From a virus, in the IMG/VR virus record IMGVR_UViG_3300032291_003652, positions 1 to 36,441 of that record: DNA of 36,441 bases. The stretch is one strand, 5' to 3'. Under the pieces are notes generated by a model. It did no database searches, was not told the origin of the DNA, and was given only the letters and a program-made list of their open reading frames with translations. Position numbers and translations under genes: made by a program. Each line of letters opens with the position of its first letter. The first letter of the stretch is position 1. Below, in pieces: positions 124 to 32,886 of the stretch.

Positions 124-1337
124 TTGATCCTTTCAACGTCAATAGTCCCCATGGTGCAATATCGAGATCCGTCCATAGCATGATTGTTTTGATCGACCGG
201 CAGCATGTCTTTGCCATTCTGGTCTGGCTTTAAATCTTTGGGATCTGGATAATGATAAGTAGAGTATTCATCAATGGAATTTTTGCAATTACTGAAGACT
301 TTATACTTATCAGATTTGATCAGTTTATAGTGCTCCTCGATACCAATCTGAATCGTGTTGATCGCAGCCATAGCGTTAAGCCCGTTAAGACAAAACTCCT
401 GAATGTATTCCGGACGAGACGGGTCACAATGAAACTCCTCGATCTGGTAAAGATCCCGAAATCGTTGCGCTGCCATTACCATCTCTGCTAACCGCTTTGC
501 CGGCTGATAGTACTCAGCGATCTGGTACCTATGTCCATCCGGCAGCACTGCGACGACAATGATCACAAATGGATCGGTATACCCCCAATCCACTCCCGCA
601 TAGATCCTGGCACTAGACGGCAATGCAATGGGTTCGATAACGTGAATTTCTTCTCGAAAACAGTCATAAACCAGTCCCTCAGGACGTTCAAACTGCCCAC
701 CATAAACCATGTTAAACCGTCTCTGGTCCATGGTGTACTGCCGGTTTATATATTCGGATTTTGGGAAATAGGGATTCTCGCTGCTGTTCGCTTGAATTAT
801 CGTTGCAATTTGTCTGATATAGGGATCGTGGTTGTTCCATTTACGAATGTAATCAGTCCATAACCAATTGAGGCTGTATGGGCTCGATACAATACTTATG
901 GGGGCTTCAGAAAAAGATGACCTGGCTTGGATGTTGTCCCAGAAATAACGAGAATAAAGACCTGCTTCATCACACAGAATGGATCTCACTCGAGTGATAC
1001 CGACAACAGAGTTAGGATCGGTGCCTGTTCGAAACCAGACAGTGCCACCGCCAGTGATCATAAAACAGTCGTTTTTCTTGTCCCATTTACCATAGGCGCC
1101 CATGACGTGATTGAACACAGGTAGTGTCGATTGTGACAGGATCTTATATGTCGGAGACGTGATCAAAAAATTGTCCTGTCTGTCGGTATAAGTGAAGTAA
1201 TAGATGGTCTGGCGCATAACGCCAACAAGAGTTTTCCCCCATTGGATGCCTGTAGCAGCAATCGTGATCTTGCTATCGCTATTTATGATTGTGTTTTGTT
1301 TTTCGCTGTGCGGCCTAAATACCAATGTCTCTTGCAT
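27..1337 (-). CDS. terL: Terminase large subunit (ATPase/nuclease)
   Basis: DNA-packaging motor: an N-terminal ATPase drives DNA into the prohead and a C-terminal RNase H-fold nuclease cuts the concatemer. The 436-residue protein has a Walker A-like GIQWGKT at about 30-36, a Walker B LCDE at 121-124, a nuclease aspartate in GVDWG at about 250, and the late acidic motif NHAMD near 385-389 followed by RY. The length is normal for the family. It lies downstream of the NeuB-like gene with a 23-base overlap and no strong Shine-Dalgarno, so translation is probably coupled. Its stop overlaps the start of the zinc-ribbon gene by 8 bases across the circular junction, and the portal follows. Assignment is secure; the packaging type (cos, pac or DTR) is not established. 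Confidence 0.93.
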   Translation of the reverse strand: MQETLVFRPHSEKQNTIINSDSKITIAATGIQWGKTLVGVMRQTIYYFTYTDRQDNFLITSPTYKILSQSTLPVFNHVMGAYGKWDKKNDCFMITGGGTVWFRTGTDPNSVVGITRVRSILCDEAGLYSRYFWDNIQARSSFSEAPISIVSSPYSLNWLWTDYIRKWNNHDPYIRQIATIIQANSSENPYFPKSEYINRQYTMDQRRFNMVYGGQFERPEGLVYDCFREEIHVIEPIALPSSARIYAGVDWGYTDPFVIIVVAVLPDGHRYQIAEYYQPAKRLAEMVMAAQRFRDLYQIEEFHCDPSRPEYIQEFCLNGLNAMAAINTIQIGIEEHYKLIKSDKYKVFSNCKNSIDEYSTYHYPDPKDLKPDQNGKDMLPVDQNNHAMDGSRYCTMGTIDVERINSIVRPGDQKHDHQLHHSERIKKLMRKRKEYA

Positions 1338-2199
1338 TAATCACGGTCCCGTTCGATATTTTTGATATCGCATACATGATCCCTTCATTGGAATCAAATA
1401 GTTCATTTTTGTCGTCAGATGAAAGGCATCTCTCGAAAGACCAATTGACGCCATACTCGAGACGATCTCCGGGATTGATATCAGCTATCGCAAAGGCATT
1501 TCTCCTTGGTAAACCGTATGGTATTTCCCTCTTGTCGTAGTTCCCTGTCTTGAGGAAATGGCAGTAACGGTAGAAATCACGGCCATTGAGAGCAAATATA
1601 CCGCTATCTGGGGTTGTCGTTAGCTCGAGCGGGTTAACGTGCTTTTCGACGACATTGATTCCAAAGAGCCGTTGCGCTGCCCAAGCAGTGGTATAAATGT
1701 CAGCTGAGTGGTCTGAAAGGCCTACGTCACAATCATATCGTTCAATGAAACTATCGATATCCTTAAGATTCATGCGTCTTGATGGGTATTCCGATTCACA
1801 AGCCAGGAGCGTGACGTTCTCAGGCAAAAACACTCCAAAAACATGGTCAAATGATTCGTAGGCACCAGTGGAGATGATGACTGGCTTATTAGTCCTTTCG
1901 ACCATTCTCAAAAGCGGAAAGTGTTTCGCCTCACATGATGCTATTTTCCAACGATCAACATATGGGTTTAGGACCTCGACATCAAGAGGATCAAAAACAG
2001 ACGCTAAAAACTCTATGCCATGTTCGTCGCATTCTGCTTTAATACGATCCAAGTCATATAGCTTTGACCGTGATACTCCATGCATATCTAGATATTGGAT
2101 TTTAAACACGTCTGCTCCACATATAGAGCAGACTTTGATTGAACGCAAAAGGTCGGACGTGCAGTAAAAATTTGAACCAATGTCAGCTATGATTTTCAT
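1315..2199 (-). CDS. NeuB-family nonulosonic acid synthase
   Basis: NeuB/PseI/LegI enzymes condense phosphoenolpyruvate with a 6-carbon amino sugar to make a 9-carbon nonulosonic acid. The 294-residue protein shows the TIM-barrel signatures: ADIGSN (5-10), GADVFKIQ (28-35), KIAS (85-88), ESEYP (135-139), GLSDHS (160-165) and EKHV (185-188). A shortened SAF/antifreeze-like C-terminus starts near 221 (PRRNAFAIADINPGD). Family members are usually about 340 residues. The first metal-binding histidine (H187) is present, but the second, normally in a PDH motif, reads PDS at 197-199, so catalysis may be altered. The gene sits between the TerS-like and TerL genes, overlapping its neighbours by 17 and 23 bases, an unusual place for a sugar enzyme. 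It probably joins the sugar genes at 15495-19646. Exact substrate unknown. Confidence 0.86.
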   Translation of the reverse strand: MKIIADIGSNFYCTSDLLRSIKVCSICGADVFKIQYLDMHGVSRSKLYDLDRIKAECDEHGIEFLASVFDPLDVEVLNPYVDRWKIASCEAKHFPLLRMVERTNKPVIISTGAYESFDHVFGVFLPENVTLLACESEYPSRRMNLKDIDSFIERYDCDVGLSDHSADIYTTAWAAQRLFGINVVEKHVNPLELTTTPDSGIFALNGRDFYRYCHFLKTGNYDKREIPYGLPRRNAFAIADINPGDRLEYGVNWSFERCLSSDDKNELFDSNEGIMYAISKISNGTVINARDIGI

Positions 2200-4239: not shown

Positions 4240-4800
4240 GTGTCAAAAGGAATAACATTCAGGGAAATTGATGCCCTGGACACGATCATGCTCTATAAAT
4301 GGAGAAGGTCTCACCGTGTCTCAGTAATGATGAGTGGAGATCCGCCAACGGATTTAGCAACACATTGCCAATGGCTTGATGGTTGCTATCGGCATCAGCA
4401 CTATTACCATTGGGTAATAGAAATCAACGGTTTTCCCGCAGGATTGATCAATATTTGCGATTATGATCCAGTAAACCGATTAACTTTTTGGGGTTATTAT
4501 ATAGGAGACGATAAATACCTTGGTTATGGTGCGTTGATTCCGCCATACCTGTATAATTTTCTTTTCACCGAAATGGCTATCGACAAAATTGAGGCTGAGG
4601 TTTTCGAACGTAACGCGATGGTAATTGGTATGCATAAATATCATGGCTATCAAGAAGTGCCGTTTTTCGACAAAGACCTGAATAATGGCCATCTAAAATA
4701 TATGTTTTTAGATAAAGACGATTGGCTAGCACAAAAACAGTATGCGCGATTTCGCGCAGAATTTCCAATGACGAGGTGGTTGTATGCTCCAGCGCGATGA
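4240..4800 (+). CDS. PseH-like GNAT N-acyltransferase
   Basis: A 186-residue GNAT-fold protein. PseH-type members acetylate the 4-amino group of a UDP-amino-dideoxy sugar in pseudaminic acid synthesis. Family signs are the WRRSHRV segment near 21-27, the central INICDYDPVN-x-LTFWGYYIG (about 70-90), a glycine-rich cofactor loop GDKYLGYGAL near 89-98, and EVFERNAMVIGMHKYHGY near 117-134. It starts with GTG at 4240, preceded by AAGGA, and overlaps the acyl carrier protein gene by 17 bases. That tight coupling suggests that it takes an acyl group from the carrier protein instead of, or as well as, acetyl-CoA. It is the first gene of a four-gene operon. Confidence 0.78.
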   Translation: MSKGITFREIDALDTIMLYKWRRSHRVSVMMSGDPPTDLATHCQWLDGCYRHQHYYHWVIEINGFPAGLINICDYDPVNRLTFWGYYIGDDKYLGYGALIPPYLYNFLFTEMAIDKIEAEVFERNAMVIGMHKYHGYQEVPFFDKDLNNGHLKYMFLDKDDWLAQKQYARFRAEFPMTRWLYAPAR

Positions 4801-5077
4801 TTTAGTGCAACTTATAATTGATTGCGGGAAAGAGTTTAAACTATCAAGCAATTTAGATGAGGGATTGATAGGTATGGGATCTCAGCTTGATTCCCTCGAT
4901 CTGGTGCGGTTCCTGGTGAATGTCGAAGCAAGGGTCAACACTGATCTGCAGTGTTTTGTTGTTCTAGTTGACGATCGAGCAATGTCAGAACGGAATAGCC
5001 CATTTCGGTCAATAAATGCATTAACAGACTATATTTTAAGGATCGCAAATGAAAACAATGGTGATTTCCGGTCATAG
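4784..5077 (+). CDS. Acyl carrier protein
   Basis: A 97-residue protein with the ACP helix II motif DSLDLVRFLVNVE; Ser37 is the expected phosphopantetheine attachment site. ACPs carry acyl or aminoacyl groups as thioesters between enzymes. The protein is a little longer than a typical 80-residue ACP, with a C-terminal extension. It overlaps the GNAT gene upstream (17 bases) and the dehydrogenase downstream (29 bases). With the AMP ligase at the end of the operon it forms a loading pair: the ligase adenylates an acid and transfers it to the ACP thiol. Activity depends on a host phosphopantetheinyl transferase, as none is seen here. Confidence 0.78.
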   Translation: MLQRDDLVQLIIDCGKEFKLSSNLDEGLIGMGSQLDSLDLVRFLVNVEARVNTDLQCFVVLVDDRAMSERNSPFRSINALTDYILRIANENNGDFRS

Positions 5078-5699
5078 TCGAGGTATCGGTAAATTTCTGG
5101 CTAATTATTACAATGACAAAGGATGGTTCGTTATTGGTCTTTCGAAATCAACTGGATGCGACATAACCGACGAAGATGCTGTATGGATGAAGTTAAAAGA
5201 TTTATACAGCATTCAAGCATGTATAAACTGTGCTGGAATCGCAAGCATGAATCATTCCATGACAATTCCGATCGATAGGGCAAGAGACGTGCTAAATACA
5301 AATGTTCTTGGAAATTTCACAGTTTCCAGGCAATGTGCAAAAAAGATGTTATCGCATAAAAACGGCAGGATCATTAATTTTTCTTCGATAGCTAGTCCCA
5401 TGGATATCCAAGGTGAATCTATCTATGCAGCATCGAAAGCAGCTATCGAGAGCCTTACAAGGATCATGGCCAAAGAACTTGCACAAGCTTGCATAACTTG
5501 CAATTGTGTTGGCCCTAATCCCATTCAGACAGATTTGATCAAAGGTCTTTCACAAGAGAAAATCGATGCTCTAATAAGTAAGCAGCCAATTAAGCGTATG
5601 GGCACTTTCGAGGATGTCGCCAATGTGTGCGATTTCTTTTTGGATGACAGAAGTAATTTTATTACAGGACAGACCATATACTTGGGGGGGATATCGTGA
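5049..5699 (+). CDS. Short-chain dehydrogenase/reductase (FabG/PtmA-like)
   Basis: A 216-residue classical SDR: cofactor motif GHSRGIG (8-14), NCAG (60-63), catalytic serine in FSSIAS (112-113) and Y126-x3-K130 in YAASK. The C-terminal GQTIYLGG is typical. Such enzymes reduce 3-oxoacyl-ACP (FabG) or oxidise and reduce sugars and acids. An SDR gene (ptmA) is also known in the Campylobacter flagellin glycosylation locus. AGGA lies 6 bases before the ATG. It overlaps the ACP by 29 bases and the ligase by 4. Its placement between an ACP and an AMP ligase suggests that it acts on an ACP-bound acid, for example making a hydroxyacyl group, though a sugar substrate is possible. Confidence 0.9.
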   Translation: MKTMVISGHSRGIGKFLANYYNDKGWFVIGLSKSTGCDITDEDAVWMKLKDLYSIQACINCAGIASMNHSMTIPIDRARDVLNTNVLGNFTVSRQCAKKMLSHKNGRIINFSSIASPMDIQGESIYAASKAAIESLTRIMAKELAQACITCNCVGPNPIQTDLIKGLSQEKIDALISKQPIKRMGTFEDVANVCDFFLDDRSNFITGQTIYLGGIS

Positions 5700-7030
5700 G
5701 CATAATAGCACGGCTAGTTGAGGACAAAAAACTGTTTACCGCGATCATCGATAACGGTAAATACATATCAAATACTGATTTAAAACATCGGTGTGATAGC
5801 TGCTTAGCGTCTCTTTCGTGGTTTAGAGTTAAGAGGGGTGACGTTATTGCGATCGAGACTAACTTTTGTGCGGACGCTATCGCTTGGTTTTTTGCGGCCG
5901 TTGAGATCGGTGCCGTAGTGGTTCCTTTGCAAAATGGCGATAAAGATAAGGATCGCAAGCAAGAGATAAGCGAAGTAAACCATATAATTACCAAAAAAGA
6001 GGATGAGACGTTCTATCATCATATCCGCTCCACCGAAGAAAAGAAAAACCCGCTCTATAACTGCCTAGAAAACGCAGGTCTGGTTTTATTCTCTAGTGGG
6101 ACATCTGGCAAGCCAAAAGCGACGTTACATTCTATGGATAGATTGCTTAAAAAATGGACACATAAACGTAAATCTGAGACGACATATCTCGCGCTAAGAT
6201 GGGATCACATAGGCGGGATCAATACCATGCTGCACGTTCTGCTTAACGATGGATGCCTAGTTAGAGATGCGCTAAGATCTGCTAAGAATGTATGCAAATT
6301 GATTCAGGAGCATAAGATCTCTTGTCTACCGACAACACCGACATTTCTAAACCTGATATTGACATCTGGCGCTTATAAAGAGTTTGATCTGAAATCTCTT
6401 AAGACAATCACATATGGGACTGAGCCCATGCCAGAAATAACGCTATCGATGCTTAATCTAGCGATGCCTTGGGTAAAATTAAAACAAACTTATGGATTGA
6501 CAGAAATAGGAATCCTTCGATCAAAGTCAATGTCCTCAAATAGTACTTACATGCAAGTTGGTGGCGATGGAGTGGAGACACGCATCAGAGACGGTAAGCT
6601 TGAAATAAAATCAGAAACATCCATGATAGGTTATCTTAATGACATATCTCCTTACACTGAAGATGGTTGGTTCATGACTGGCGATCTGGTCGAGGAGAAT
6701 GGCGAATACATCAAGATACTTGGACGGGAATCTGATCTCATCAATTGTGGCGGTGAAAAGGTTTATCCGGCTGAAGTAGAGGATGCTATCAAACTTTTTG
6801 AGAACATCGAAGATTGCGTAGTTTTCGGTGAAAGATCACCGCTTATTGGTCAAATGGTATGCGCAAAGATCTCAGTTAAGGACAAAAACATCGATGAGAA
6901 TCTATACAAATCAAAATTAAACAGTCATTTAAACAGTGTTTTGGATAAATACAAAATACCAATGAAAGTGTCGATTGTGGCATCGATTGGAATGACTGAT
7001 CGAGGTAAAAAAGACCGCTCTACTTGCTAA
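5696..7030 (+). CDS. AMP-forming acyl/aminoacyl-ACP ligase
   Basis: ANL-superfamily adenylating enzyme of 444 residues, slightly shorter than the usual 500. Motifs present are the phosphate loop LFSSGTSGKPKA (131-142), YGLTEIG (266-272), GWFMTGD (324-330), the hinge region after GR-x-SDLINCGGEKVYP (343-358), and the C-terminal catalytic lysine in TDRGKKDR (K438). It should activate a carboxylic acid as acyl-AMP and load it on the upstream ACP. It starts with GTG (GTGA overlap with the dehydrogenase stop) after a G-rich ribosome-binding site. The acid is unknown; hydroxy, keto or amino acids are all possible. The last 11 bases overlap a leftward membrane peptide gene. Confidence 0.92.
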   Translation: MSIIARLVEDKKLFTAIIDNGKYISNTDLKHRCDSCLASLSWFRVKRGDVIAIETNFCADAIAWFFAAVEIGAVVVPLQNGDKDKDRKQEISEVNHIITKKEDETFYHHIRSTEEKKNPLYNCLENAGLVLFSSGTSGKPKATLHSMDRLLKKWTHKRKSETTYLALRWDHIGGINTMLHVLLNDGCLVRDALRSAKNVCKLIQEHKISCLPTTPTFLNLILTSGAYKEFDLKSLKTITYGTEPMPEITLSMLNLAMPWVKLKQTYGLTEIGILRSKSMSSNSTYMQVGGDGVETRIRDGKLEIKSETSMIGYLNDISPYTEDGWFMTGDLVEENGEYIKILGRESDLINCGGEKVYPAEVEDAIKLFENIEDCVVFGERSPLIGQMVCAKISVKDKNIDENLYKSKLNSHLNSVLDKYKIPMKVSIVASIGMTDRGKKDRSTC

Positions 7031-15287: not shown

Positions 15288-15531
15288 TTTCGCGCTCCCA
15301 TAAATCCTGGGCTGAAAACTTTTTTATAGGAAGTACCCTACCATCAAGTCTATCGTGAGATTGTTGATCAGGCAAATCATGATTTTTTGGCAGTGTACCT
15401 GGACCTTGGTAAATGGGTCCGGTTCGATCGCGCAGAACACGATTGAGCCGGACAATATGTAGCACTCCTATGATTTCAGCAGTTAAAATTAAAATCAAGA
15501 TTGTGATGATCGCGATTTGTTCCATTTCCAT
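15229..15531 (-). CDS. Small single-span membrane protein
   Basis: A 100-residue protein with an N-terminal membrane span (about 6-28, starting IAIITILILIL) and then a polar, Pro/Gly-containing tail with many Asp and Arg residues. The start overlaps the GNAT gene by 37 bases and the end overlaps the next membrane protein gene by 59 bases. AGGG precedes the ATG. Nested overlapping small membrane genes are typical of phage lysis modules, but the protein has no family signature. Confidence 0.55.
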   Translation of the reverse strand: MEMEQIAIITILILILTAEIIGVLHIVRLNRVLRDRTGPIYQGPGTLPKNHDLPDQQSHDRLDGRVLPIKKFSAQDLWERENGTNRSRVGPGSSDTSRSV

Positions 15532-16043
15532 TGATCCCTAGTGATACTAATCATGTGAGCGGAAATCCATTTCCCGCCTTTGAAATAGAAAGATTGCCTC
15601 TCACCATCATATATCATCCACAATTTTTTGATAAACGTTTCTATAGCAGGATTGCCATCAAAACACTCACCGTAAATCAGGTTAAGGTTTAGGTCATCAA
15701 AACCGTGGTCAAAAAGCGTCCGAAGAGCATTTGTCCCAATTCCACGTTGCTGGATCTCAGGTCTGACCCATGCGCTAAATTCTGCACGCTGGTTCTGGCG
15801 GCAAATGTATGTCAATCCGCACACACCGCAGAATTTGTTGGTCTGGTCATGGATCTCATAAAACTTGTGCTCGTCACTCGAGAACACCTTTTGCCAATAC
15901 GCAGCGTTTTCCCACTCACTAAGCAGACCTACTTGCCTAAACCAACGGTTAAGCCTGGGATCGTTGCGATGGTCCATGATCGTTCTTAAATTCGCAGTGG
16001 AGACGACATCAAGATAAATGCCACCGTGTTCATAATCAATCAT
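15495..16043 (-). CDS. GNAT-family acetyltransferase of the sugar operon
   Basis: A 182-residue RimJ/PseH-type GNAT. It has the DHRNDPRLNRWFRQ segment near 24-37, CGLTYICRQNQRAEFSAWVRPEIQ containing the central strands, the acetyl-CoA loop QQRGIGTNAL (about 98-107) and LIYGECFDGNPAIETF near 120-135. Such enzymes acetylate an amino sugar or a sugar nucleotide. It overlaps the 55-residue gene by 4 bases (ATGA) and is the last enzyme of the operon. With the PseH-like enzyme at 4240, the phage encodes two different sugar N-acyltransferases, one possibly using acetyl-CoA and the other acyl-ACP. Confidence 0.78.
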   Translation of the reverse strand: MIDYEHGGIYLDVVSTANLRTIMDHRNDPRLNRWFRQVGLLSEWENAAYWQKVFSSDEHKFYEIHDQTNKFCGVCGLTYICRQNQRAEFSAWVRPEIQQRGIGTNALRTLFDHGFDDLNLNLIYGECFDGNPAIETFIKKLWMIYDGERQSFYFKGGKWISAHMISITRDQWKWNKSRSSQS

Positions 16044-16207
16044 AGCTCAAGAACCCTCAAAAGCAGGTCATCCCATTTGATGTTTTTCTCGCCGGTCTCA
16101 GTCTCAACGCGAGAATTCCAATCGATTACTCTACGTTTAAAATCTTCTTGTTCTTGATCGAGTTTTTTCTTTTCAATAAACAGCTCTTTAATTTTTTGCT
16201 TATCCAT
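16040..16207 (-). CDS. 55-residue coiled-coil protein in the sugar operon
   Basis: A small leftward gene between the aminotransferase and the GNAT gene. The product begins MDKQKIKELFIEKKKLDQEQ and is charged and helical. It overlaps the aminotransferase stop by 8 bases and the GNAT start by 4 bases (ATGA), strong evidence of a real, translationally coupled gene. Function unknown; possibly a subunit or scaffold of one of the neighbouring enzymes. Confidence 0.65.
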   Translation of the reverse strand: MDKQKIKELFIEKKKLDQEQEDFKRRVIDWNSRVETETGEKNIKWDDLLLRVLEL

Positions 16208-17426
16208 TAGCTTTTTCCCTCACCTTTTGTGACATCGGTTTAATTGGCATCTGACCTTCGAGGTTTATCTGACCCTCAGAGATCCTCTCAAGTATCAATT
16301 TTGAGATATACAAAATTTCAGAAAAGTTTTCAGCAATTTCAAAGTTGGTCAAAAATGTAGTTTTGGTGAAAAACTTCGCCTTGATCATTTCCTGCCGAAA
16401 TAAAGCAAGATTAAGATCGCTGCCAACGAAATTGCAACGGTTCCCCCATCCGACCAGCTTAACAATATCAGGGTAGAGGCTATTGAAATTTTGCATAAAA
16501 TTCTTAGATTTTTCGTTAAGCGTGGTAACATCATATTGGTGACCTCGCTTTGTCAATAATTCGATGACAACGGTGACGGCTCTGAGACTTGGAATATGCG
16601 AAAAATATGACCCGGAGACAAAATACTCACCGTCCATGATATCGCTTTTACCGGCAACAAGCGCGACTTTATGACCATTACCAATTGCTTTTCCCATCAA
16701 AATTAAATCTGGTTGATGATTCCAGTGGCGAGCTACGGTATAATCAGGGTACCGAATCCCCGTGACTATTTCGTCATACACCAAGACAACACCGTGAGCA
16801 CTGCAAAGTGCTCGCAGTTTTTTAAGCCATTCGATCCGCTCTAGTGAATCGTCCAGCATAACTGGTTCGACGATAATTGCTGCCGTTGCATCAAGCAAAA
16901 ATGGGTTTATTTCATCCAAATTTGCTGGCAATTCGAACATCGCGTGTTGTTCTGGAATTCCGTTGGCTGGCGGTGTTAAAGAAACAAATTCATCTGACCA
17001 ACCATGATAACCCTGGCTCATAACTACTTTCCTGCCGGTATAAACCCTAGCCATCCTGATTGCAGCTATGCAAGCTTCAGTGCCTGAATTGACAAACTTG
17101 ATCTTTTCTGTCCATGGTAAAATTGACTTAACTGCTTCAGCAGCATGAACCTCTTGAACAGTTGAACCACCAAGGCAGCCGCCATAATCGCTATCAACAA
17201 AATTCTCGATCAAAAGATTTCCGTAACCAAAAAAATTGCATCCCAAAGCACAGACGAGATCCATGTACCGGTTATCTTGACTGTCCCAAATCCAGCATCC
17301 CTTGCCTTTTTTAAAATGCGTAGGGAAAACGCCAAAGATATCAGTTTTAGGGTTCTTTGAATTTGTCAAATAACCCTGTGCAATGCATCGATTCGCACGG
17401 TCTAAAATCACGTTATCAATACTCAT
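16200..17426 (-). CDS. Class III (GSA-type) PLP aminotransferase
   Basis: A 408-residue fold-type I aminotransferase close to glutamate-1-semialdehyde 2,1-aminomutase. Motifs: SGTEA (114-118), GYHGWSD (139-145), EPV (187-189), YDEIVTG (217-223) and the PLP lysine K246 in LMGKAIGNG. The start at 17426 is used; a longer frame to 17468 lies inside the upstream gene. It should transfer an amino group to a keto sugar. Classical Pse and Leg pathways use DegT-family PseC/LegC here, so this is a substitution or a different step. It overlaps the cytidylyltransferase gene by 11 bases. Confidence 0.9.
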   Translation of the reverse strand: MSIDNVILDRANRCIAQGYLTNSKNPKTDIFGVFPTHFKKGKGCWIWDSQDNRYMDLVCALGCNFFGYGNLLIENFVDSDYGGCLGGSTVQEVHAAEAVKSILPWTEKIKFVNSGTEACIAAIRMARVYTGRKVVMSQGYHGWSDEFVSLTPPANGIPEQHAMFELPANLDEINPFLLDATAAIIVEPVMLDDSLERIEWLKKLRALCSAHGVVLVYDEIVTGIRYPDYTVARHWNHQPDLILMGKAIGNGHKVALVAGKSDIMDGEYFVSGSYFSHIPSLRAVTVVIELLTKRGHQYDVTTLNEKSKNFMQNFNSLYPDIVKLVGWGNRCNFVGSDLNLALFRQEMIKAKFFTKTTFLTNFEIAENFSEILYISKLILERISEGQINLEGQMPIKPMSQKVREKANG

Positions 17427-18135
17427 AGACGCCCAACCCCATTTCCTGCGCTTTTTTGCGTTTTTCAATCGATCTATTAAGCCGATAATTTACGCCATTG
17501 AAATCATCTGGCGTGTCGATCGAACATTTAATATGCGAATTGTCCTCGATTGTCGAGAGGATTGCCATCCTGAGATGAGAAGGCAGCTTTTTGCGCAAAG
17601 CAATCGTGACGTGCTCAAAATCCTCTTGATCGCTGTTGTTGGCATTAAGCCATTCCATAGCGTCTGCTGACATGAGCTCGACATCATGACCATCAGGAGT
17701 GGTTCTAATGTGCTCCCAGCTATTGCACATATAGTCGATCCTGTGCTTTGCCGCTTGGTAAATGGATCGATTGATTGCAGGCTGAGGGATCAACGGGCAA
17801 TCGGCAGTTAGACGCATCAAATACTTTGGTTTTTTCATCTCATAGATCGACCAGAACCTCGAGAACACGTTGTTGAGATCGCCACCGATAATTAGGTCAA
17901 AATTGTGCTTGTGCCGCTCTACCCAAAAATCAAATTCTAATTCCGGGACCAGGAGATTAACCGAAAACTGAAAATCATAGGCTGTGTTCGGTCCTTTTAG
18001 CGGTAAAATTGAGTTTTTAATGGTCTTAACCATATAGCTAATGATCGTACCGTCACCGAGAGGTTTCGTAGATTTGCCTGGCATCCTAGTCGAGGATGCT
18101 CGCGCTTGAATGCATATGTCAATATTTGTAGGCAT
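17416..18135 (-). CDS. SpsF-like CMP-sugar cytidylyltransferase
   Basis: A 239-residue nucleotidyltransferase. The N-terminal signature IQARASSTRMPGK (9-21) is that of SpsF/KdsB/NeuA-type cytidylyltransferases that couple CTP to a 3-deoxy-ulosonic acid. Other conserved parts are IIGGDLNNVFSRFW (82-95), RLTADCPLIPQ (108-118) and PDGHDVELM (147-155). It would activate the NeuB product as a CMP-sugar. The ATG at 18135 is preferred since AGGAG lies about 10 bases before it; the ATG at 18144 is only 1 base from it. It overlaps the Gfo/Idh gene by 17 bases and the aminotransferase gene by 11. Confidence 0.86.
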   Translation of the reverse strand: MPTNIDICIQARASSTRMPGKSTKPLGDGTIISYMVKTIKNSILPLKGPNTAYDFQFSVNLLVPELEFDFWVERHKHNFDLIIGGDLNNVFSRFWSIYEMKKPKYLMRLTADCPLIPQPAINRSIYQAAKHRIDYMCNSWEHIRTTPDGHDVELMSADAMEWLNANNSDQEDFEHVTIALRKKLPSHLRMAILSTIEDNSHIKCSIDTPDDFNGVNYRLNRSIEKRKKAQEMGLGVYEY

Positions 18136-18760
18136 TTTTTGCATACTCCTGAGTTTTTTTATGCGCTGAAATTATATATTCATGATTCTGGTCTAATTTA
18201 GACAACCAGGATTTTATGTTCCAGACGTAGGCAGCATCCATCGCGCCAATATCGCATTTCCAGCCATTAAGCCACAATGTCCATATCGGACTGGTCTCGC
18301 GTAGGATCAGCCTGCCTGTCGAGAGACCTATGATGTTTATGCAATCCCAGTACAATCCATCTCCACCATGCCGATAATAGTTAAAAAGCGTGACTGGATC
18401 GGGTCCGCAAAGACTGATGTCTTTCACCATTTTTTCTTGCTCAGCACGATTTCCCTCATACCATGCGTACTGGTTTATCATCCTGATGTTTATGCCTGGT
18501 ATTGATAAAGTCTTCTCCAATTCGTTCAAATCAAACGACATAGGCTTTTCACAAAGAATCGGCATGTGAGCAAATTGCTCGCAGTGCTTTAGATGGAAAT
18601 GTGTCGGTGTTGCAATGATAAGACCATCGCATTTTTGCAGATCTGCGATATTTTGGCCTATGTCAACAACCACGGTTTCATGACCAAGCATTTGGCAAAT
18701 AAGCTTATATCTGGTGCCCATATTCCCCTTGCCACCAAGGATGCCAATCTTTTTAGCCAT
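18119..18760 (-). CDS. Short Gfo/Idh-type sugar oxidoreductase
   Basis: A 213-residue protein with a Rossmann domain: glycine motif GGKGNMG (9-15), ATPTHFHLKHC (50-60) and the family marker EKP (71-73). Gfo/Idh/MocA enzymes oxidise or reduce sugars with NAD(P) and are found in many sugar-modification loci. The usual length is over 300 residues; here the C-terminal beta-sheet domain is reduced to about 90 residues with aromatic-rich sequence, so substrate binding may differ. GGAG lies 7 bases before the ATG, and the start overlaps the dehydratase stop by 8 bases. Likely works on a keto intermediate made by the dehydratase or aminotransferase. Confidence 0.75.
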   Translation of the reverse strand: MAKKIGILGGKGNMGTRYKLICQMLGHETVVVDIGQNIADLQKCDGLIIATPTHFHLKHCEQFAHMPILCEKPMSFDLNELEKTLSIPGINIRMINQYAWYEGNRAEQEKMVKDISLCGPDPVTLFNYYRHGGDGLYWDCINIIGLSTGRLILRETSPIWTLWLNGWKCDIGAMDAAYVWNIKSWLSKLDQNHEYIISAHKKTQEYAKNAYKY

Positions 18761-19646
18761 AAGCCAGCTCCATAACTGTCGGTCTGAGTTTAGAAATCAA
18801 TTCATCCTCTTTATACCTGACAGAGCTATCAGACCTGATGCAATAATCGTGGTCGGATTTGAGATGCTCATGGATTTTCTCGCCAGGTCTTATGCCGGTA
18901 AACCGGATCTTGACATCAAATTCATCCAGGATCACGCCAACCGCATTAGCAATGTCAATCAATGTTGCGCTCTTGATGGTTGGGCAAATGCGCGCCTCTT
19001 TCTGGATCTCTAGGTATGTCGTTAGCACAAAGTAAACAGCTTCATTGATTGTCAACCAAAACCGTGTCATATCAGAGTGAGTTATGTTTACTGGCTGCTT
19101 TGCTTTTATCGCATCAACAAAATATTTCAAAACAGAGCCGTTAGACCCAAGAATATTTCCCCAGCGGTAAATGCTCATGTTCACGTGTTTATCCTGACCG
19201 TCTACCCATTTTGCTCTGATATATTTCTCAGCCAGTGCTTTGGTCATTCCGTAGGCATTGATCGGCAACACCGCTTTGTCAGTACTAAAAAACACGAAAT
19301 TTTTGATCCTGAAATTTAATGCAGCATTTACAACGTTAATCGTGCCATTGAGGTTAGTGTTTATGTATTGCTGAACCACCTGTTCTCCTCTGTCAACATG
19401 CTTCAAAGCCGCGCAGTGAAAAACACTGTCAGGCCTATACTGCCTAAGGCAAGCACCGACGTCTTCAGATCTTGTGACATCGCCAAGAAAACAGGTCACA
19501 TTTTTGTGCTTTTTCTCTAGTTCAATATGCTTCGATTCATCTCTCGAGAACACAACCACTTCATCAAAATAGCTGGCTGCATTTATTTGCCTGATCAGTT
19601 CAGTTCCCAAGGTCCCGGTTCCACCCGTTATCACACATACACTCAT
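18753..19646 (-). CDS. UDP-GlcNAc 4,6-dehydratase/epimerase (PseB/FlaA1-like)
   Basis: A 297-residue extended SDR. Motifs: TGGTGTLG (7-14), FSRDESK (33-39), GDVTRS (55-60), HCAALKHVD (77-85), STDKA (121-125) with Y132-x3-K136, RWGNILGSNGSV (161-172) and MTRF (193-196). Small PseB-type proteins of this family remove water from UDP-GlcNAc to give the 4-keto-6-deoxy sugar that starts pseudaminic and legionaminic acid synthesis. The ATG at 19646 is chosen over a longer frame to 19676 because the family begins at MSVCVITGG and AGGGG lies upstream. It is the first enzyme of the leftward operon, directly before the Gfo/Idh gene. Confidence 0.9.
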   Translation of the reverse strand: MSVCVITGGTGTLGTELIRQINAASYFDEVVVFSRDESKHIELEKKHKNVTCFLGDVTRSEDVGACLRQYRPDSVFHCAALKHVDRGEQVVQQYINTNLNGTINVVNAALNFRIKNFVFFSTDKAVLPINAYGMTKALAEKYIRAKWVDGQDKHVNMSIYRWGNILGSNGSVLKYFVDAIKAKQPVNITHSDMTRFWLTINEAVYFVLTTYLEIQKEARICPTIKSATLIDIANAVGVILDEFDVKIRFTGIRPGEKIHEHLKSDHDYCIRSDSSVRYKEDELISKLRPTVMELAYG

Positions 19647-19648
19647 CG

Positions 19649-19975
19649 TTAATTTCCCCTTTCCCTGGGAGACCAAGTAAACAAAAAGTCAGGATCGATT
19701 CTTTCAACCCTTAGGATCGTTGCTCCTTTGTTGAGATCAGCCATGATTCCTAAGATGTCTGGATGTTCTGACTGTTTTTTTAAGCTATTTTGCAGTTCAA
19801 GTATTTTCGCTTCATGATCCATTATTTTAGTAATTTGATTGATATTGACTTGTAGCTTTTCTTGAATTGATGACTTTAAACGTCTTATTTGTGATGCATA
19901 ATGGATGTTCTGAAGAAATAAAAAGCAGAGTATTGTGGCAAAAACAACATAGTAAATAATAGTCAAATAATCCAT
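19649..19975 (-). CDS. Membrane-anchored coiled-coil protein at operon head
   Basis: A 108-residue protein with an N-terminal membrane span (about 4-22, IIYYVVFATILCFLFL) and a coiled coil to about residue 75 (IRRLKSSIQEKLQVNINQ), then a short globular tail. It has GAGG 8 bases before the ATG and follows a candidate promoter at 20017-20045, so it is the first gene of the sugar operon. It ends 2 bases before the dehydratase start. An i-spanin or a membrane anchor for the sugar enzymes are both possible. Confidence 0.55.
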   Translation of the reverse strand: MDYLTIIYYVVFATILCFLFLQNIHYASQIRRLKSSIQEKLQVNINQITKIMDHEAKILELQNSLKKQSEHPDILGIMADLNKGATILRVERIDPDFLFTWSPRERGN

Positions 19976-30123: not shown

Positions 30124-30390
30124 TTAAACTCCGTAAATCGTGCAATAAAACACGTCACCACTCGTTACTGAACTAAGCGCAAGATAACCAGCGGTAGCAG
30201 TGCCGCTTGGTAAAGCGTTAATCGCGATCCGACATCCGCTTGTCTGGGTTTTTGCGGTAAGCTGAGCAGCGATAATGTTACCAAATCCAGTATTGACAGA
30301 ACCACTAGTGTTATCAGCAGTGATTGTGCCGTGAATTACGCGCTGATTTCCGTAAATCGTTTTATTTGTGACGGTAAGAGTAAAAGCCAT
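30124..30390 (-). CDS. Small head protein, probable decoration
   Basis: An 88-residue Thr/Ala/Gly-rich protein, starting MAFTLTVTNKTIYGNQRV, with AAGGAG 7 bases before the ATG. Its short beta-strand pattern ending in CTIYGV fits a small capsid-decoration or head-completion protein. Similar small proteins following the capsid gene are common in podovirus genomes. Together with the 118-residue protein it could be a substrate of the DUF115 protein just upstream. Confidence 0.55.
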   Translation of the reverse strand: MAFTLTVTNKTIYGNQRVIHGTITADNTSGSVNTGFGNIIAAQLTAKTQTSGCRIAINALPSGTATAGYLALSSVTSGDVFYCTIYGV

Positions 30391-30402: not shown

Positions 30403-31434
30403 TTAGATTAAGAGCATCTGGCTCGCGCCAGGTTTAAATTCGGAGCAATTTTTTGCCTGAAACTCAAATTGCTCATGTATTTTGTACAATTCAATGAATT
30501 TTGAGAACTCCATCTGCTTAAAGCTATCAAGGTTTCCTTCTCGGTATGCACCCAAAATGCCGTCTTCTGAACAATTGATATAAACGCCAGGGCATGTCTG
30601 GCTAACATAGTCAAACCATTGCTTAAAATTCCAATATGATGGCCATGTCCTAACAGAATTTCCCCAAATATCGACAGTTCTAATGGTGTTTCCGATGTTC
30701 TTATCGTAATCACTATCCCAGGCATGAAACCGCAGTTTGTCTTTGTTCGAAAACGCAAAATCGGCTCCGATAAACACACTTGTCTGGCATCCCATGAATG
30801 CCTTGGAAATGTAAAAACATGCGCCTAAAACATTTCCGCCATTACTGACCCAAATGTTGAATGGCTCGATATCATTTACCGCTTTGTTGTATTCTTCACC
30901 TGGTACAGGTGCGTTATACCAAAGGATCTTTCCCCGCCATTTCTCAATGAGACGTGGCGATGATCCAATATATGCAAGCAATGTTCTCTTTTCAGTCATT
31001 GCCCAATATTCATCTTCAGTTTTTGTTCCACCTTCGCAGACCTCTTTGACCGTGATCTCACCTGCGTCTAGTGTGACGTAGTAATCTGGATTTGCGCCAG
31101 CTTCTTCCATCGCGTGAAAGGAATGCAAGCATGATATAAGCGGCATCCAGTATGGTCGGTCTTTGAGAATATCGATGTTATTTCTAAGACTCGGGCCTGC
31201 ACCAGCGATGATGCAGGGCAAGCCCGACTTAGAACCCCAAATCTCACCAATCGACTTTGGTGAGAATGGTCCGAAACGATCATGGTTTTCTTTGATATTT
31301 TTCAGCCAAATCGGCAGCCAATTTTGCAGCGTAGGACCATCAGACGCGCAAGCATTCGAGTACATTTGCTGCGTAGTGATTGGCGGCACCGCAATGTATG
31401 GCTGTAATTCCAAAATGATGTTCGCTGTTTTCAT
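30403..31434 (-). CDS. DUF115/Maf-like glycosyltransferase candidate
   Basis: A 343-residue protein with DUF115 signatures: CIIAGAGPSL (74-83), ANPDYYVTLDAGE (114-126), and GGNVLGACFYISKAFMG (199-215) then VFIGADFAF (220-228). In Helicobacter and Campylobacter-type bacteria DUF115 (Maf) proteins are needed for adding pseudaminic acid to flagellin Ser/Thr, and other members are MptE-like pterin kinases. GGAA lies 5 bases before the ATG. It is encoded in the head cluster directly after the capsid genes, although the other sugar genes are elsewhere. If it is a transferase, capsid or fibre proteins are the likely acceptors; this is inference. Confidence 0.72.
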   Translation of the reverse strand: MKTANIILELQPYIAVPPITTQQMYSNACASDGPTLQNWLPIWLKNIKENHDRFGPFSPKSIGEIWGSKSGLPCIIAGAGPSLRNNIDILKDRPYWMPLISCLHSFHAMEEAGANPDYYVTLDAGEITVKEVCEGGTKTEDEYWAMTEKRTLLAYIGSSPRLIEKWRGKILWYNAPVPGEEYNKAVNDIEPFNIWVSNGGNVLGACFYISKAFMGCQTSVFIGADFAFSNKDKLRFHAWDSDYDKNIGNTIRTVDIWGNSVRTWPSYWNFKQWFDYVSQTCPGVYINCSEDGILGAYREGNLDSFKQMEFSKFIELYKIHEQFEFQAKNCSEFKPGASQMLLI

Positions 31435-31460: not shown

Positions 31461-31940
31461 TTAAATTTGTCCGTAAACTAGTGCGCTGGTAGCAGTACCA
31501 GTGACGCCAGTAACCGTGGACATTGCGGCCGCTTGATGAATCGCAGTCACGATCGCGGTCACAAAAACACCGTTAATATCCAAAGCCAATGGAATACCAA
31601 CGGCATAACTATTGCCAGGCATTGCAGGGACAACACCTTTGGAGCAAACCCAACCGTATGTCGCTGTCGTTAGTGTTGCGTGAACGACAACACCAATCAA
31701 AGGAGAACCACTGTTACTTGATACTGTGCAGCTGTAAGGAGACACACAACCACTTACGGTGTTAGGTGTAAGACCATAACCAGGAGAAGCCTGGCTGGTG
31801 CCTTCATTGTAAACGTAAATCCATTCTTTGCCATCAGCCCAAAGGCGAGTGCCTAAGCTTGGTGCTTGACGTCCAGGGGTTCCAGTCACTGCTGACAGAG
31901 ATTCTGTCAACACTACGTTCGGGGAATAATACTGACTCAT
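31461..31940 (-). CDS. Probable head-decoration protein
   Basis: A 159-residue protein with Ser/Thr/Gly-rich, beta-type sequence, directly after the major capsid gene. Its start MSQYYSPNVVLTESLSAVTG is followed by two WADGKEWIYVYN and YGWVCSKGVV strands. AGAGG lies 6 bases before the ATG. Proteins in this place usually decorate the capsid. The many Ser/Thr make it a possible acceptor of a sugar. Confidence 0.6.
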   Translation of the reverse strand: MSQYYSPNVVLTESLSAVTGTPGRQAPSLGTRLWADGKEWIYVYNEGTSQASPGYGLTPNTVSGCVSPYSCTVSSNSGSPLIGVVVHATLTTATYGWVCSKGVVPAMPGNSYAVGIPLALDINGVFVTAIVTAIHQAAAMSTVTGVTGTATSALVYGQI

Positions 31941-31962: not shown

Positions 31963-32886
31963 TCAAGCGGTGATGCCAGAAAGTTTGAAATGTTTACGGT
32001 TGTTGCTGCTACCCAATGCGCCCATCCAGCAAATCCGACCAGTGCGAACTCTGGAGTTAATTGGGGATTGGAATGGGTCAACGCTAAAGTTCATCTCGGG
32101 GTGATAGAACAGGTGCAGTTCCTTTTCGTTAATCCCAAAAATATGCGCTGTTGGGCAGTGGGAATCACTGATAAAAGGCACGCCATTGAACATTAACGAT
32201 TGAAAACCGGCATTTGCGGTCGATGAATCAAAAAACCTCTGTGCGGGTTGTAGCAGGTTATAGAACCGGTTATAGTTTGCTCTTGTACCTACTATCACGC
32301 TTGGTTTACTCGATCCGATAGCAGCTGCTTCGAATTGAGTATTTAGTGCGGAAATGGTGAGAGTGGTTGTCGTGCTATCGACTTGACCCTGATGCCAGGA
32401 CGAAGTTGTCTGAGAAATGCCACCAACGGTCTGATCGACCGCTACGATGTCTCTAAGGCCAACGATCGACTTAGAATCAGTTCCATCGCTGTAAAGACCA
32501 GTCCCGAGATAATCGCGGATGGTTTCTTCAGCAATCTGGCTTTTCGATGCGAGAAGCTTGATAACGCCAGCATCACCACCGTTTTTCAAAATGTCTTCCT
32601 CGGTGAGCGAGATGGCAGCATATAGGTTACACCAACTGAAACGGGCTGCCGTCAAATTATCCGAATCTGCCGTGGCCAAAGTGTCGTTGCCGCTAAACCA
32701 ACCAGCGCTGGTCTGCTTTGCATAATTGAGTGGGACATCAATATATGTGCCACCAGACACACTTTGATATTGTCCGCCTTTCAAAATTCTTTGAAGCAAT
32801 GGATTACTATCGAATATATTGTCAAATAGCTTAGGCACAATGTACCTATGGGTAAGTGCCGTCAATTGGTCTAAACTTAATGCCAT
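31963..32886 (-). CDS. Major capsid protein
   Basis: A 307-residue protein of the HK97-fold type. It begins MALSLDQLTALTHRYIVPKL and has N-arm like LQRILKGGQYQSVSGGTYIDVPLNY, a mid-region VIVGTRANYNRFYNLLQPAQRFF, and the ending HKHFKLSGITA-like segment preceded by GRICWMGAL. Position downstream of scaffold and portal and normal size support the call. GGAAAG-like GGAT lies 8 bases before the ATG. No protease domain is fused. Confidence 0.82.
   Translation of the reverse strand: MALSLDQLTALTHRYIVPKLFDNIFDSNPLLQRILKGGQYQSVSGGTYIDVPLNYAKQTSAGWFSGNDTLATADSDNLTAARFSWCNLYAAISLTEEDILKNGGDAGVIKLLASKSQIAEETIRDYLGTGLYSDGTDSKSIVGLRDIVAVDQTVGGISQTTSSWHQGQVDSTTTTLTISALNTQFEAAAIGSSKPSVIVGTRANYNRFYNLLQPAQRFFDSSTANAGFQSLMFNGVPFISDSHCPTAHIFGINEKELHLFYHPEMNFSVDPFQSPINSRVRTGRICWMGALGSSNNRKHFKLSGITA

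Follow-up and report, generated by a model that had tools for sequence, protein, structure and literature searches.

A lineage of uncultured phages retains a nonulosonate-type sugar gene set and a Maf-like transferase gene among its head genes

What does a small phage do with a set of genes for a nonulosonate-type sugar? The question is raised by the IMG/VR virus record IMGVR_UViG_3300032291_003652, of which we analyzed the whole 36,441-nucleotide stretch (hereafter the window). An initial annotation had pointed out in it an operon of sugar enzyme genes, a NeuB-like synthase gene, and a gene for a DUF115 protein, and had proposed that the phage makes its own sugar. The window, catalogued as a virus, is a complete phage genome of 36.3 kb with a 123-bp terminal direct repeat. 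Profile searches identified genes encoding a large terminase, a P22-like portal, a major head protein, and other virion proteins; searches of the window for tRNA and Rfam RNA found none. The seven core sugar genes occupy 16% of the genome, and 24% together with a second operon, a share that few small phages are expected to devote to one sugar. As detailed below, there is good support for a conserved phage pathway of nonulosonate type that supplies a Maf-like transferase, and attachment to the virion is the most likely use of the sugar.

All the genes named in the initial annotation are intact open reading frames (ORFs) at the positions listed in Table 1, and in G+C content the operon resembles the surrounding DNA. 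Its description as one overlapping operon holds for the first four genes, which overlap by 8–26 bp, but the GNAT gene follows a gap of ~156 bp. The predicted NeuB-like synthase is certain to belong to the NeuB family. Its closest solved relative is the pseudaminic acid synthase of C. jejuni (8h2c, 2.6e-24), it scores 87.9 bits with the PseI model (cut-off 340), and residues K33, K85, H164, E185, and H187 are unchanged across 16 phages. Very short NeuB proteins of 229–256 amino acids (aa), without the C-terminal part of longer members, are encoded at L062:7830-8576, L073:7779-8549, and L083:7757-8446. For the PseB-like dehydratase, the best NCBIfam model is that of PseB (TIGR03589; 197.7 bits versus an equivalog cut-off of 407.8), the closest solved relatives are 4j2o, CapE, and 2gn4, and the residues T122-D123-K124 ... 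Y132-x3-K136 are unchanged across four phages. The cytidylyltransferase exceeds the PF02348 cut-off (37.1 versus 22.6 bits) with a match spanning 34 residues only, has a profile match to 6oew (4e-22), and matches no NCBIfam model. Its N-terminal nucleotide motif Q-x-R ... R-x-P-x-K and D115 are unchanged across 15 phages, as are D218 and the pyridoxal phosphate (PLP) lysine K246 of the aminotransferase. The GNAT protein of the operon, encoded at the same location in most family members, scores 37 bits with the PseH model TIGR03585 (cut-off 93).

The remaining enzyme of the operon is a Gfo/Idh-type oxidoreductase, for which an AlphaFold2 model (predicted local distance difference test, pLDDT, 95.5) confirmed a compact fold. 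The model resembles full-length sugar dehydrogenases with Z scores of 18.7–19.9, among them GenD2 (19.9), GnnA (18.8), and KanD2, and E71-K72-P73 are unchanged across 15 phages. GenD2, KanD2, and GnnA work beside aminotransferases; we infer that the phage oxidoreductase may act as a pair with the aminotransferase in introducing an amino group. A GxDGLxWDC[IF][QN] motif is conserved in the C-terminal half of the family. The catalytic His typical of such enzymes is possibly lost, a point not confirmed by the profile alignment, which stops short of that region.

The DUF115 assignment held at the level of both profile and fold. The protein scores 75.5 bits with PF01973, above the curated cut-off of 34.6, and the best solved match of its structural model (pLDDT 88.9) is the Magnetospirillum Maf protein 5mu5 (Foldseek E 3.4e-10; Z 21.8 over 247 residues with a root-mean-square deviation of 3.4). 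This alignment spans residues 238–516 of the 632-residue 5mu5 chain, i.e. the catalytic core alone. The N- and C-terminal domains flanking the core in flagellar Maf proteins were not found in the phage protein, making it a Maf-like core and not a full flagellar Maf. The next structure matches are MptE-type HPPK (Z 14.7) and the unrelated cell-division protein SteA (Z 10.3), followed by users of CMP-sialic acid, CstII (Z 9.6) and ST8SiaIII (Z 9.4). The sialyltransferase scores lie moderately above the level of a common arrangement and may be regarded as supporting, not decisive. In 34 of 34 phage contigs carrying DUF115, the gene directly follows that of a protein we call capsid+1, which consists of 23% Ser+Thr; in the small protein encoded on the other side of the DUF115 gene, this proportion is 25%, the maximum in the window. 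That a phage encodes a DUF115 protein is in itself no novelty, because other viral MptE-like proteins are present in BFVD.

The initial annotation treated the gene set as a trait of one phage. It is indeed present there, but this understates a trait that is lineage-wide. First scans of IMG/VR with PseB and terminase queries yielded four relatives, and later profile scans with aminotransferase and DUF115 queries yielded more. The ~30 relatives form an uncultured lineage of 33–40 kb phages with no member in INPHARED. Their long contigs measure 31–40 kb and largely share gene order; several end in direct repeats of 114–127 bp and hence look complete. In INPHARED, a nucleotide search with the operon and a tblastn search with DUF115 both gave no match, and capsid relatives are at most 32% identical. 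BUCT555, the only one of these inspected, has no annotated glycosyltransferase after its capsid gene.

A first set comprised the window and 14 other genomes, each 31.5 kb or longer, most of them found via sugar genes. PseB, cytidylyltransferase, aminotransferase, and GNAT genes are present in all 15, NeuB and Gfo genes in 13 each, and DUF115 in 14; the exception, G020, is a contig that does not reach the capsid region. NeuB is absent from G002 and G003, an 80-aa candidate (30 bits) in the latter having been judged spurious from its gene context. The set is kept despite shuffled gene order in G014, G015, G018, and G020: PseB sits upstream of NeuB in G014 and G015, and G020 has NeuB, PseB, Gfo, cytidylyltransferase, and aminotransferase genes in a single cluster. 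In G012 and G013, the operon lies on the opposite strand. Because most of these genomes came from sugar-gene queries, we repeated the count free of that selection with a capsid-only query, examining 11 further near-complete contigs of at least 32 kb. DUF115 and the aminotransferase (one degenerate) are found in 11/11, cytidylyltransferase and NeuB in 10/11, Gfo and GNAT in 9/11, and PseB in 8/11, and the absences in G1016 and G1020 may be due to contig ends. The degenerate copy belongs to G1015 (L262:10640-11590), where the aminotransferase is shortened and its PLP-lysine segment reads AANACG instead of GKAxGNG; the remaining pathway enzymes are lost and DUF115 is kept. Genes of a single pathway would be expected to disappear together in this way. 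A random retention of one or two genes, for which the initial annotation had suggested inspecting related phages, is contradicted by the 11 capsid-selected relatives.

How long have these genes resided in the lineage? In a tree with 45 cellular aminotransferases, those of the phages group as a single clade (SH-aLRT 99), and the pairwise distances of each enzyme track those of terminase, portal, and capsid (r 0.54–0.94; 0 of 500 permutations as high), so the sugar genes are old residents. We take the invariant residues in the aminotransferase, cytidylyltransferase, NeuB, and PseB to be the catalytic positions of these families. Because residence is old and these positions are unchanged, the core genes are, as judged from their sequences, maintained enzymes and not passengers. 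The idea that they are recent captures from hosts, devoid of function, has in its favor that phages do capture cellular genes and that one genome, G1015, shows decay. It is contradicted by conservation across ~30 genomes and by a monophyletic, long-resident set that co-diverges with structural genes and has invariant active sites; its probability is negligible.

The cellular relatives place the aminotransferase in a nonulosonate context. A profile scan of 84,980 species genomes yielded 80 loci with this aminotransferase, 27 of which also have PseB and NeuB; among the latter, PseC is found in 26, PseG in 21, and the same cytidylyltransferase family in 23. In such loci, e.g. in Aeromonas, Colwellia, and Janthinobacterium, the aminotransferase relatives occur together with PseB, SpsF-type cytidylyltransferase, PseC, PseG, and PseI. 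A Pelagibacteraceae locus reads PseB, PseC, NeuB, Gfo, aminotransferase, PseG, and PseI, followed by an acyl carrier protein (ACP), a short-chain dehydrogenase (SDR), and an AMP-ligase, and ends with a further protein weakly matching a GNAT profile. Since this locus holds both runs, a single nonulosonate locus of a cell corresponds to the two phage operons combined.

Several observations count against the reading that we favor below. Hidden Markov models (HMMs), built for PseC from cellular sequences of this DegT-type enzyme, detected neither PseC nor the UDP-sugar hydrolase PseG in any phage genome examined; no hidden copy of either turned up among the phage ORFs, and the recurrent unassigned phage families contain no recognizable sugar enzyme. 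With NCBIfam models, the PseB, NeuB, and GNAT proteins stay under the equivalog cut-offs, and the cytidylyltransferase has no match at all, so that the specificities are putative. NeuB is missing from two genomes in which the other enzymes stay, and Gfo from several. G1015 keeps DUF115 in the absence of the pathway, so that DUF115 may use a host donor or have another role. With PseC and PseG absent, this is not canonical pseudaminic synthesis: unless the host takes care of the two steps, the product must be another one. Most simply, amination would fall to the class III aminotransferase and the removal of UDP to a host or unrecognized enzyme, or else the phages would rely on hosts with a pseudaminic pathway. 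The claim of a phage pathway to CMP-pseudaminic or legionaminic acid thus survives in part: the nonulosonate-type set is intact, dedicated, and accompanied by a Maf-like transferase, but it is incomplete.

We lean slightly towards a reading in which this lineage makes a CMP-nonulosonate by a dedicated pathway of its own, and a Maf-like transferase in the cytoplasm uses it to glycosylate a head protein. The reactions, product, acceptor, and benefit that we infer for it are as follows. The PseB-like dehydratase would convert UDP-GlcNAc to a 4-keto-6-deoxy sugar, to which the class III aminotransferase and GNAT would add an amino group and acylate it; the compact Gfo/Idh protein might contribute a further oxidation. 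UDP would be removed by a host enzyme or an unrecognized step, the NeuB-like synthase would condense the freed sugar with phosphoenolpyruvate, and the SpsF/PseF-like enzyme would form the CMP-sugar. Soluble DUF115 would then move the sugar, in the cytoplasm, to a head protein before or during assembly, the likeliest acceptors being the capsid protein, capsid+1, or the small neighboring protein. In the sublineage of the window, the second operon could add an unusual acyl group. The phage might benefit through receptor masking, particle stability, or escape from host recognition. Capsids are made in the cytoplasm. Transfer of pseudaminic acid to flagellin, dependent on Maf1, also happens in the cytoplasm (PMC4065374), and this mode of action, together with the position of the DUF115 gene, is why virion attachment is favored. 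The fold of DUF115 and its place among head genes favor the initially proposed attachment of a sugar to virion proteins. A more specific version, namely that a sugar of the phages' own making is linked covalently to the capsid by the capsid-module Maf-type transferase, as a flagellin-style sialylation repurposed to coat the virion, with the class III aminotransferase replacing PseC and an unrecognized step replacing PseG, is tentative, and we give it clearly less than an even chance.

The strongest competitor, with a probability somewhat below one half, bears on where the sugar comes from and is compatible with virion attachment. In this case, the phage genes would be a partial pathway that tops up or diverts that of a pseudaminic-making host, DUF115 taking the host CMP-sugar once phage genes are lost. 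It would account for the lack of phage PseC and PseG, present in 26/27 and 21/27 of the cellular loci with aminotransferase, PseB, and NeuB, and for the loss of NeuB in G002 and G003 and the retention of DUF115 without enzymes in G1015. Most genomes nevertheless keep PseB for the first step and the synthase and cytidylyltransferase for the last ones, which topping up would not need, and amination may be performed by the class III aminotransferase. The initial annotation had also suggested that the host surface is remodeled: a nonulosonate, made or diverted by the phage, would be placed on the host surface or flagellin by DUF115 or host transferases and block rival phages. Although characterized Maf proteins do act on flagellin (PMC4065374) and the missing PseC and PseG look as if a host pathway were tapped, this weaker alternative is unlikely, because the transferase is fixed within the head-gene module in every contig that has it, and no flippase, polymerase, or membrane glycosyltransferase was recognized, soluble DUF115 being the only recognized glycosyltransferase. 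The remodeling enzymes EpaA/B, moreover, belong to prophages living with their host, and no lysogeny was seen in this lineage. A profile of the phage-type DUF115 found nothing in 398, 296, and 284 genomes from three phyla (978 in total), which is uninformative about the host and only weak evidence on a prophage state. Less probable still is that the product is a different nucleotide-activated amino sugar, e.g. for a polysaccharide or another modification. The class III aminotransferase resembles C-6' aminotransferases of aminoglycoside type, the Gfo/Idh protein resembles GenD2 and KanD2, and the specificities of GNAT and cytidylyltransferase are predicted only. Against this, most genomes encode a NeuB-family synthase whose catalytic residues are conserved, the homologues in cells occur in PseI/PseG operons, and the transferase has a fold in common with sialyltransferases.

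Compared with known systems, the DUF115 protein of the window shares with the Maf/DUF115 flagellin transferases (Magnetospirillum Maf 5mu5, Aeromonas Maf1) the core fold, PF01973, and a genome with nonulosonate genes. It differs in size (343 aa versus ~630–670 aa) and in being encoded among capsid genes, not flagellar genes. Of the pseudaminic pathway PseB-C-H-G-I-F, the phages have PseB-, PseH-, PseI-, and PseF-type enzymes, and some operons in cells also encode the same class III aminotransferase and SpsF-type cytidylyltransferase, but the phages lack two enzymes, have a class III aminotransferase and a compact Gfo/Idh protein instead, and score under equivalog cut-offs. EpaA and EpaB of Acinetobacter prophages are two enzymes that epimerize host-made pseudaminic acid in the host capsule (PMC12053666). 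They too are phage-encoded nonulosonate enzymes, CTP_transf_3 domain included, but those temperate phages have neither synthase nor transferase, and their domain make-up (an AKR-fused cytidylyltransferase plus an SDR) was not found in the window. Mycobacteriophages encode glycosyltransferases proposed to act on the capsid (PMC11256854), another case of phage transferases thought to modify capsid proteins. They are described as carrying glycosyltransferases only, whereas the window also encodes a pathway dedicated to a sugar, besides a transferase of Maf type. A literature search, with subscription journals mostly outside its reach, found no phage that combines a nonulosonate pathway with a Maf-type transferase in the capsid module. 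If the preferred reading is correct, these phages have a self-sufficient system for virion glycosylation, with a lineage-wide pathway tied to a head-gene transferase, and would provide biochemistry and glycan engineering with short Maf-type enzymes that have simple acceptors. It would also raise the question what use a virus has for a sialic-acid-like coat, whether as receptor decoy, for stability, or to escape bacterial or protist recognition. The missing steps of the shortened pathway point to new enzymology or host dependence.

Table 1. Sugar-pathway, transferase, and candidate acceptor genes in the window
Position	Strand	Feature	Support
1315-2199	-	NeuB/PseI-like nonulosonate synthase; adjoins large terminase gene	PF03102 8.4e-32
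4240-4800	+	PseH-like GNAT, first gene of accessory operon	TIGR03585 1.4e-20, 74 bits, cut-off 93
4784-5077	+	ACP-like protein, conserved DS[LI] motif	D36-S37 unchanged across 3 phages
5049-5699	+	FabG-like SDR	PF13561 7.5e-38
5696-7030	+	AMP-forming acyl ligase	PF00501 3.6e-29, PF13193 2.7e-8
15495-16043	-	GNAT N-acetyltransferase of operon, PseH-position	PF13302 3.5e-14
16200-17426	-	Class III (glutamate-1-semialdehyde-type) PLP aminotransferase	PF00202 4.3e-31
17416-18144	-	SpsF/PseF-like CMP-sugar cytidylyltransferase	PF02348 3.7e-9; CTP_transf_3
18119-18760	-	Compact Gfo/Idh-type oxidoreductase, 213 aa	PF01408 3e-6
18753-19646	-	PseB-like inverting UDP-GlcNAc 4,6-dehydratase, first enzyme gene of operon	PF02719 7.6e-75
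19649-19975	-	Small membrane/coiled-coil-like protein directly upstream of PseB	Family in nearly all members
30124-30390	-	Small protein downstream of DUF115, candidate acceptor	Adjoins DUF115 in nearly all members
30403-31434	-	DUF115/MptE-like (Maf-type) putative glycosyltransferase, 343 aa, between head genes	PF01973 5.4e-21
31461-31940	-	Capsid+1 protein, candidate sugar acceptor	Directly upstream of DUF115 in all members
31963-32886	-	Major capsid protein, candidate acceptor	phrog_9953 6.7e-52

The second, rightward operon (4240-7030) had been overlooked in the initial annotation. It encodes a PseH-like GNAT, an ACP-like protein, an SDR, and an AMP-ligase, and is shared by the window only with G001 and G004, the two phages closest to it, whose AMP-ligases are shorter, with ~100–120 N-terminal residues absent. 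The ACP-like protein has no significant Pfam match; a relative of it adjoins the SDR and AMP-ligase in the Pelagibacteraceae nonulosonate locus. The small protein encoded directly upstream of PseB has no match in Pfam either. In the sugar cluster of G020, a Formyl_trans_N gene (L083:3500-4048) suggests an N-formyl variant of the sugar. A ~330-aa protein with no Pfam match adjoins GNAT in G002 and G007 (L014:2060-3052, L061:12734-13768). G002 (L015), G003 (L016/L017), and G007 encode secreted lipoproteins that are papain-like and accompanied by a conserved protein, and G016 encodes a trypsin-like protein.

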